From Geomonas oryzisoli (lineage in GTDB: Bacteria; Desulfobacterota; Desulfuromonadia; Geobacterales; Geobacteraceae), in the NCBI RefSeq assembly GCF_018986915.1, contig NZ_CP076723.1:1273501-1337500 (forward strand): a DNA stretch of 64,000 bases, read 5' to 3'. The first letter of the stretch is position 1. Every line of letters starts with the position of its first letter. The notes beneath the pieces were generated by a model that saw nothing but the letters and a program-made list of their open reading frames with translations, made no database searches and was not told where the DNA came from. Shown here piece by piece: positions 28,617-30,351 of the stretch. The position numbers and the translations under genes are program-made.

Positions 28617-29054
28617 TCACAACTCCTTCCTCGATCCGGCCGGCGAAAACCTCACCGCGACGATCCGGATCAAGGCCAGGGAAAGCACCAGCGCGATGGT
28701 CATGGCGACCTCCTGCCAGTCGATGTCCTTGTACCAGAACGCCATTACCTCGGTGAGCACGGTGACGATCACGGTGTCGATGATGTAGGTCACCTTCACC
28801 CGTCCTTCCGTGGAATACGCCAGCGCGGTGCGCAGCACCTCGATGATGGCGAGCACGGTCAGCAGGTCCACCATGATCTGCTTAGACGCGCCGTGGAAGT
28901 CCTCTTGGAAAACCAGGCGCAGGTCGTAGACGGTGCACCCGACGCCGGCCACGATGGCCAGCAGGATGGCGATGATCAGCAGGCACAACACCGCGCGTGC
29001 GGACATCTCGTAGAACCGGTTCAGCTTCAGATCGACGCTGTTTTCTCTCCACAT
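28617..29054 (-). CDS. psiE: PsiE-family membrane protein
   Basis: About 145 residues with four hydrophobic segments (residues about 21-45, 60-78, 88-105 and 115-135) and the PsiE-type pattern around Val-Asp-Leu-Leu-Thr-Val-Leu-Ala-Ile-Ile-Glu-Val-Leu-Arg. In E. coli psiE is induced by phosphate starvation; its function is unknown. ATG 29054 is preferred over the adjacent TTG 29057. No well-spaced Pho box was found upstream (two CTGTwAm words are 13 bp apart), so phosphate control is not shown here. Confidence 0.8.
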   Translation of the reverse strand: MWRENSVDLKLNRFYEMSARAVLCLLIIAILLAIVAGVGCTVYDLRLVFQEDFHGASKQIMVDLLTVLAIIEVLRTALAYSTEGRVKVTYIIDTVIVTVLTEVMAFWYKDIDWQEVAMTIALVLSLALIRIVAVRFSPAGSRKEL

Positions 29055-29124: not shown

Positions 29125-29631
29125 CTACAATTGCGTGACATCCCCTTCTTCCTGCAGTTCGGCCAGCCGCGCCAAAAGCTTTGCGGTATCGGGAAAACCG
29201 CGCTGGATATAGCGGATGACGCCCGTCTTGTCGATGACGAAGGTGGCGCGGCCGGCGCCGTAGAGTTTCTGAACATTTCCCTTATCATCGGCCAGCAGGG
29301 GGAAGGAGATGTCGTGCTCCCCGGCGAAATCCAGGTGTGTCGCCAACGCGTCGCTGCTCACGCCCAGGACCTGGGCGTCCTGCTTCTCAAAAAGCGGCAA
29401 CTCCTTTTGAAAAGCCTGCATCTCGCTGGTTCAAACCGGGGTGAAATCGGCGTAGTAAAAGGCGAGCAGCACGTGTTTCTTTCCCGCGTAATCGGCAAGA
29501 CTTACCGGCCCCTTGGTTGACTCCGCCTCGAACTGCGGCGCCTGTTCGTCCACCCTCGGCAGCCGCGAGCCCATGCTCCCAATGGCGGCGAGCGCCGAGG
29601 TTGCCATACTTCCCAAAATCGATCGTCTCAT
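29125..29631 (-). CDS. Selenocysteine-containing peroxiredoxin (BCP/PrxQ-like), UGA read as Sec
   Basis: An in-frame TGA (29433-29431) divides two conserved halves that together make a normal 168-residue AhpC/TSA peroxiredoxin. The TGA stands exactly at the peroxidatic Cys: Ala-Asp-Phe-Thr-Pro-Val-(UGA)-Thr-Ser-Glu, residue 67. Downstream, Val-Leu-Gly-Val-Ser-Ser-Asp and Phe-Pro-Leu-Leu-Ala-Asp-Asp-Lys-Gly are intact. No Cys occurs anywhere else, so it would act as a 1-Sec enzyme without a resolving Cys. The start is ATG 29631 with GGAGG 10 nt upstream; the N-terminal Arg-Arg and hydrophobic stretch look like a secretion or Tat-like signal. It reduces peroxides. Selenoprotein peroxiredoxins are known in delta-proteobacteria. 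Confidence 0.85.
29394..29419 (-). ncRNA. Candidate bacterial SECIS stem-loop in the peroxiredoxin mRNA
   Basis: Starting 15 nt from the U of the UGA: GC-A-GGC pairs with GCCGC around a 15-nt loop rich in A and G. Bacterial SECIS elements lie inside the reading frame at this distance and need a small apical stem-loop for SelB. The pairing is short, so this is a candidate only. Confidence 0.4.
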
Positions 29632-29661
29632 CTGAAAAATCCTCCCCGTGAAATGTCGGAC

Positions 29662-29683: not shown

Positions 29684-29769
29684 ACCACGCGAGTGTACCA
29701 GAAAACACAAAAAAACCAGCTTCCCGGGCGGGACACTGGCTGAAAACAGCTTCAGTTTCGTTGCGACGG

Positions 29770-30351
29770 TCATCTCTGCGCGCGTTTCCTGCGCCACCAG
29801 GTGGCCCCGCACATCCCGGCAAAGCCTGCCGCCATCATCATCGCCGTTGCGGGCTCGGGGACGGGAGGGGGATCGCATTTCACGGAGACGGTCCAGGTTC
29901 CATCGTTGAAATTCCGGCCGAAGCCCGCACCGTTCATGCCGATGTCATAGGAGCCGTCGGGGGAGTTCTCGGAATAGACGGTGTTCCCGGTACCGTCGGG
30001 GGTGTTGGCGAGCCAGATCCACCAGCCGACCGGCGTTCCGTCAGACTTCAGGCCGTCGAAGATCTGCAGCTCGGAATAGCCCGCGCTGGTCATATTCATG
30101 GTCTGGTAGCCGTCCGACATGATGAAGGTGATCATCTCCGAGCTCTGGTTGTCGGCGAAGCCCCGCTCGCCGAAGCTTAAGGGATGGTCGGTAAGCAGCG
30201 AGATGGTGACGTGGTCGGTCGGGGTGTAGGCGGTGCCCTCGAACCAGTCGAAGGGAAGACCGACGTATTCGTAATCGTAGATATGGGCCTGCGAGGTTAC
30301 CGGCAGAAACAACAGCATCAGCACTGCGGCGGCGAGAATCCTGGTCCTCAT
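29770..30351 (-). CDS. PEP-CTERM sorting-domain protein
   Basis: The 193-residue exported protein has a signal peptide (cut near Ser-Gln-Ala-His, residue 22) and a C-terminal PEP-CTERM tripartite signal: Val-Pro-Glu-Pro-Ala, a hydrophobic helix, then Trp-Trp-Arg-Arg-Lys-Arg. Such proteins are processed by an exosortase and usually belong to biofilm or envelope matrix. The exosortase is not in this window. AAAGGAGG lies just before ATG 30351. The middle domain is not recognised; it is rich in Gly, Asp and aromatic residues, as in beta-sandwich surface proteins. Confidence 0.9.
   Translation of the reverse strand: MRTRILAAAVLMLLFLPVTSQAHIYDYEYVGLPFDWFEGTAYTPTDHVTISLLTDHPLSFGERGFADNQSSEMITFIMSDGYQTMNMTSAGYSELQIFDGLKSDGTPVGWWIWLANTPDGTGNTVYSENSPDGSYDIGMNGAGFGRNFNDGTWTVSVKCDPPPVPEPATAMMMAAGFAGMCGATWWRRKRAQR

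Follow-up and report, generated by a model that had tools for sequence, protein, structure and literature searches.

Does the TGA that interrupts a peroxiredoxin reading frame in the soil bacterium Geomonas oryzisoli end the gene, or is it a codon for selenocysteine (Sec) at the active site? The window, i.e. the whole stretch of 64,000 nucleotides that was analysed, is part of a 4.85 Mb genome assembled in one contig (G000:C1), and in it two minus-strand frames of the same phase are parted only by this TGA, exactly at the coordinates first proposed for them. Read as one gene (29631–29125, minus strand), the sequence begins with an ATG at 29631 and ends with a TAG stop at 29127–29125; the single in-frame TGA lies at 29433–29431 and the rest of the frame is open. 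If the TGA is counted as one residue, translation gives a protein of 168 amino acids that carries Sec67 in the motif FYYADFTPV-U-TSE and has no Cys at all, in agreement with the original prediction. The TGA is at the position of the catalytic Cys, and that the joined product is a peroxiredoxin was confirmed by a match to the Pfam domain AhpC-TSA (PF00578), which covers residues 27–142, runs across the TGA and scores 117.4 bits (cut-off 26). The gene is under purifying selection on both sides of the TGA, with a pooled dN/dS of 0.127 before and 0.190 after it (28 pairs from eight Geomonas orthologues), and the eight Geomonas copies contain no further stops in frame. The reading favoured here, with high confidence, is that of a functional selenoprotein, a peroxiredoxin with a peroxidatic Sec whose UGA would be decoded by SelB and tRNA-Sec with the aid of a hairpin.

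Decoding of this kind depends on a dedicated machinery, and the genome contains all four of the components (selA, selB, selC and selD) that had been proposed as a check, so that neither selB nor tRNA-Sec is lacking. SelA (600.7 bits), SelB (393.5 bits) and SelD (360.6 bits) score above their cut-offs, and tRNA-Sec reaches 74.9 bits (gathering score 47), with a UCA anticodon according to ARAGORN. The tRNA-Sec model gave eleven matches, eight of them with loci; the UCA anticodon occurs in only one of these (L009), the other seven being ordinary tRNAs. The SelD gene is itself whole only with an in-frame TGA read through, which points independently to the decoding of UGA in this genome. Across the family, SelB is above cut-off in 43 of 48 genomes, including 18/18 carriers of the gene, and the same holds for 22 of 23 further carrier genomes of the phylum; in G389, a 260-contig draft that carries the gene (L119), no SelB was found at E 1e-50.

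Peroxiredoxin matches of some kind occur in all 48 family genomes, and a clear orthologue is present in 15. Eight of these are from the same genus, the window genome included, and share 79–99% identity, while the other seven (two of them also from the genus) lie at 52–59%. Three more family genomes have a member of a sister clade at 36–41%, and the peroxidatic codon is TGA in every one of the 18 carriers. The gene is found in 10 of the 19 genomes of the genus and is thus accessory, which the Sec machinery is not. Among titled genomes the nearest relatives are from Geomonas, with 86% protein identity in G. diazotrophica Red69. The titled-genome collection yielded 51 loci, 23 of which belong to the core clade or its sister and have TGA without exception (23/23); the remaining 28, from many phyla, read as BCP/PrxQ type and have Cys (27) or Phe (one). 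A sample of 395 genomes from the phylum gave 29 top matches (121–274 bits), all with a TGA, which is at the peroxidatic codon in each of the 26 whose sequence was read, and the next match, at 117.4 bits, is a Cys protein; some of the weaker matches below these 29 have a TGA or another stop. The suggested comparison of homologues for Cys or UGA at this site thus shows UGA kept in the family, titled-genome and phylum sets.

Several loci of this survey need separate mention. Two or three TGA codons are present in each of L025, L027, L028 and L029, and were rejected as signs of a second Sec, the extra TGA being the terminal stop; an extra TGA of L027 (G022, near 1983–1989) stands directly behind the presumed GTG start, the position of which is uncertain, and was likewise set aside. 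One core member (L061) is on a 6.9-kb contig titled Nitrospirota, where transfer or a mis-binned contig is possible. A further peroxiredoxin-like frame, L140 in G086, also contains a TGA in phase (DFTPVUAGE) and may have a leader; it sits on a long branch outside the core and sister clades and is perhaps another Sec lineage. An origin from viruses or plasmids was dismissed, one scan of viral contigs giving no relative and every one of the 378 matching plasmid records having less than 60% identity.

Gene callers treat the TGA as a stop, and the eight best database matches start at the ATG after it, as would be expected if it were a real one, arising from a sequencing error, in a pseudogene, or between two distinct products, one from the N-terminal part and one from the C-terminal part with its start at the ATG at 29421. 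This is extremely improbable, since the TGA occupies the same codon in the 18 family carriers and the 23 clade loci of titled records, dN/dS stays low after it with the frame free of other stops in Geomonas, and the predicted fold spans it. Reading of the UGA as Trp, Cys or another residue instead of Sec might be suspected from four database proteins with Trp at the site, but is very improbable, given that the Sec machinery is complete, that L009 alone among the eight tRNA-Sec model loci has the UCA anticodon, and that the site is the catalytic Cys of other peroxiredoxins; from the protein records, the Trp entries are best taken as gene calls in which UGA was read as Trp. The selenoprotein reading, which is consistent with a conserved in-frame UGA at the redox position and with the presence of SelA, SelB, SelD and tRNA-Sec, implies that SelB and tRNA-Sec would insert Sec67 at the UGA, helped by the hairpin just downstream.

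This hairpin (13 pairs in the MFE fold) lies 16–49 nt after the UGA, at 29415–29382 on the minus strand, with arms at 29415–29403 and 29394–29382 and the loop AGUUGCCG at 29402–29395. It corresponds to the short stem-loop noticed earlier and is a putative bacterial SECIS element. Its folding energy in the window is ordinary (z -1.63 against dinucleotide shuffles), and equally stable folds arise in 17% of 1000 synonymous recodings. Conservation was assessed in 22 core orthologues, left from 31 loci after the identical 57-nt rows L052, L065 and L068 had been dropped (28 distinct) and six sister-clade loci set aside. Standard pairs make up 90.9% of the stem cells, against 33–63% when the stem is slid by 1–3 columns. 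Changes on both sides occur in ten stem cells, a figure that none of 500 shuffles attains, and a single shuffle attains the observed covariation score. The number of pairs changed on both sides (three) is reached by 62/500 shuffles and that of further pair types (ten) by 397/500. Ten of the stem pairs are retained by RNAalifold, and one of these shows a compensated change. In a codon-preserving null for 22 of the 31 loci, with the codon usage of four window genes applied to all, 11 sequences (10 core, 1 sister) have at most 2.6% of recodings as stable as the natural one, and in four (L057, L058, L077 and L087) about half are as stable.

The clearest sign for a conserved hairpin appears to be the choice of codons. 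The stem codons Ala GCT, Phe TTT, Gln CAA and Phe TTT make up 3%, 8%, 8% and 8% of the codons for their amino acid in four window genes, and are present in 87%, 96%, 78% and 91%, respectively, of 23 core orthologues (L065 and L068 omitted as near-copies). Outside the stem, all 23 orthologues use TTC for the Phe that precedes the UGA by four codons, and CAG is the codon in each of the 17 with Gln at the fifth codon behind it. The bSECIS rule, as worded in passages of PMC13188914, asks for a hairpin with a G in the first two loop positions and 16–37 nt from UGA to loop. The window hairpin agrees with it (loop 28 nt from the UGA, with G as its second base) and is at the place expected for a bacterial SECIS, in support of the original prediction, but the rule discriminates poorly: among the core sequences 17 of 29 conform, among the sister sequences 4 of 23, and so do 1080/3744 control positions. 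Because controls pass so often the rule adds little, and it was dropped as a decisive test. No match to Rfam was obtained in the window at gathering scores.

Nothing in these proteins could serve as a resolving Cys. None of the 52 distinct Sec loci scored has a Cys outside the N-terminal leader, as the predicted 1-Sec enzyme would require, and leader Cys residues (one each in five loci) are at least 57 residues before the Sec; L116, which is additional to the 52, has one Cys, also in the leader. The protein therefore falls outside the typical and atypical 2-Cys peroxiredoxins and PrxQ forms with a resolving Cys, while domain, fold and the catalytic Thr/Ser and Arg place it within the peroxiredoxin superfamily. 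In an alignment of 17 rows Thr64 and Arg128 never vary, and each of the 30 core members has Thr or Ser at the third residue before the Sec. The Pro of the PxxxTxxU motif, however, is replaced in 30/30 core members by Tyr, Phe or Ile (Tyr60 in the window protein) and is kept in 23/23 sister members. A structure model (mean pLDDT 84, below 50 for residues 1–21) matches 5enu (Foldseek E 1.9e-15), Aquifex AhpC2, Bcp1, LsfA and AhpE, among others, Bcp1 (3drn) being the best solved relative by sequence. AhpE (1xvw), LsfA (7kuu) and Bcp1 resemble the window protein in fold but use Cys and have about 30–37% identity to it in structural alignments.

The 1-Cys peroxiredoxins AhpE and LsfA work with a single catalytic residue. 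By analogy, the selenolate of Sec67, together with Thr64 and Arg128, would most likely reduce H2O2, organic peroxides or peroxynitrite, passing through a selenenic acid, and, like AhpE, would depend for its recycling on an outside thiol or redoxin in place of an internal resolving Cys; with one Sec and no Cys, a peroxidase with an outside reductant is the most likely enzyme. The lost motif Pro in all core members, and a Cys lineage nested in the sister clade that also has no catalytic Thr (see below), might instead indicate a selenoprotein that is no longer a peroxidase, e.g. a sensor of peroxide, a reductase acting on other oxidants, or a protein that handles selenium or metals. This is considered unlikely, as Thr64 and Arg128 are invariant, the Thr/Ser before the Sec is retained throughout the core, and the fold matches active peroxiredoxins.

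Selenium-containing peroxiredoxins are a known kind. One of them, 'Prx, TxxU' (PF00578/COG1225), was first described from Eubacterium acidaminophilum. As the original prediction stated, they extend to this group of bacteria: text from PMC1794560 counts 12 Sec-peroxiredoxins, one of them in Geobacter metallireducens, and excerpts of PMC1914089 and PMC1242214 give Geobacter selenoproteins, including one of G. sulfurreducens that resembles a Pirellula peroxiredoxin. For 'Prx, TxxU', portions of PMC13188914 and PMC9312934 name WP_011365628.1 as reference, with the motifs TxxU and PxxxTxxU. The window protein shares with it the AhpC-TSA fold, Sec at the peroxidatic position and T-x-x-U; compared with the published description of WP_011365628.1 in those portions, the core clade differs in having neither the Pro of PxxxTxxU nor Cys, and in many cases a leader. 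The clade is thus an unusual variant of the kind, to judge by its sequences, with no Cys form among the core members found, no resolving Cys and the motif Pro replaced. In the main texts of the open literature, no account was found of a Sec-peroxiredoxin clade with leaders and without Cys; the clade may be counted there under the general name Prx, and the portions of PMC13188914 covered here do not mention signal peptide, periplasm, secreted or export.

The NCBIfam families PrxU (NF040737) and Prx-SUH (NF045827) are related thiol or selenol peroxidases, but the window protein is well below their cut-offs, with 55.1 bits (270) and 13.9 bits (298), respectively. Geobacteraceae also contain a second, cytosolic-looking Sec-peroxiredoxin of BCP/PrxQ type, with NTPGU at the active site, in the same genus (L103, L104 and L105) and the same family (L106 and L107). 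It differs from the window protein in the motif YPKDNTPGU and the lack of a visible leader (L103–L105), and its four tree rows are placed among Cys BCPs, indicating a separate origin. The window genome has the Cys form of this type (L109), and the Sec and Cys BCP forms are close in the tree. Another of its peroxiredoxins (L108, G000:C1:3064600-3066000) has a leader-like N terminus and the typical FTFVCPTE form.

In protein databases the family is mostly represented by stubs that begin after the UGA. Among 5.8 billion proteins searched, 849 match at E 1e-5, and in the best 120 of these the top eight, at 73–83% identity, are pieces of 93–100 residues that start at the first ATG after the UGA. 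A profile search (1828 matches at E 1e-20, 7999 candidates scored) added 92 new proteins among the best 120; 33 of these matches are short pieces beginning MQAFQ or MEGHQ, and the 59 longer ones have Cys (54, and by eye also P0158) or Trp (four). Because gene calls take the first ATG behind the UGA as the start, the family is largely hidden in these databases. Among the best 120 matches of each search, which needs shared words and is no proof of absence, there is no full-length core-clade protein with Cys.

Two quick trees, with SH-aLRT supports only, were made from a chosen part of the material (P0010–P0061, 23 BCP-type loci and 20 of the 92 new profile matches; P0030, P0031 and P0037, without a readable motif, left out of both). 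In the 131-row tree a branch with support 90 splits off the core Sec group, the sister Sec group has 100 and the two are joined at 84; the four Sec BCP rows sit among Cys BCPs, so that two origins or losses are needed. In the 152-row tree, the only one with L116, the core clade contains no Cys row, its members being 30 Sec rows and a single Trp record, with a support of only 5 for its own node and 86 for both clades together; the sister clade also has one Trp record. Nested in the sister clade, at support 100, is a Cys group of six rows (IANAFGPNC), which rules out that the whole clade is confined to Sec. These database proteins, P0135 and its group, are leader-bearing relatives with Cys at the Sec site and Gly for the catalytic Thr.

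The only Cys lineage seen is thus in the sister clade and has no catalytic Thr, as if the active site could not run on sulphur. Tentatively, and at a little short of even chances, the core may represent a distinct, selenium-dependent class of the cell envelope, with no exchange of Sec for Cys, an aromatic or aliphatic residue for the motif Pro and all non-leader Cys gone, acting only as a 1-Sec enzyme with a redox partner in the envelope. A clade with no Cys member found and an altered motif would make the question of why selenium is used instead of sulphur directly testable by a one-residue swap.

Many clade members carry signal peptides, and the likely place of the enzyme would therefore be the cell envelope, where it would be a candidate selenoenzyme of bacteria that reduce metals. 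In the window protein the leader, a possible signal peptide or membrane anchor, comprises residues 1–21 (29569–29631, minus strand), the part with pLDDT below 50, and has two basic residues followed by an uncharged stretch up to Arg23. Over the best 12 residues its hydropathy is 1.54. Among 22 hand-chosen leaders the eight from Geobacteraceae have values of 1.54–1.75, against 1.93–3.40 in the 14 others, which look like ordinary signal peptides, and two cytosolic peroxiredoxins of the window genome, taken as controls, have 0.82 and 0.55. The secretion-like N terminus of the original prediction is therefore plain in many relatives and weak in Geomonas. Export is probable for the clade; for Geomonas, where the leader is only moderately hydrophobic, it is likely at most and uncertain. 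That the Geomonas leader no longer exports an ancestrally exported enzyme, leaving it in the cytoplasm or on the inner membrane, is somewhat doubtful but a serious alternative: the low hydropathy of the Geobacteraceae leaders, and a Lys and a Glu within the hydrophobic stretch of L058 and L060, fit with it, while the two basic residues, the lack of charge before Arg23 and a hydropathy above both controls point to export.

The eight Geomonas copies have in common, by eye, three elements upstream of the gene that suggest a transcript of its own. These are, in window coordinates and on the minus strand, a terminator-like inverted repeat with a T run (29709–29739) between the gene and its upstream neighbour, a possible extended -10 promoter element (29692–29700), invariant as TGGTACACT in 8/8 copies, and a likely ribosome binding site GGGGAGG (29641–29647), with GGAGG invariant before the ATG. 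A consensus scan listed neither the repeat nor TGGTACACT. Within 4-kb flanks of 24 loci, a comparison that took ORFs of both strands and in which several clusters are antisense frames, no neighbour was common across lineages as a conserved operon or redox partner, and sharing was seen within lineages only. In Geomonas, and only there, the gene is kept beside an upstream PEP-CTERM gene, common to the copies, and mostly a PsiE gene downstream. In the window these minus-strand neighbours are the PEP-CTERM protein at 29773–30351 and the PsiE-family membrane protein at 28620–29045.
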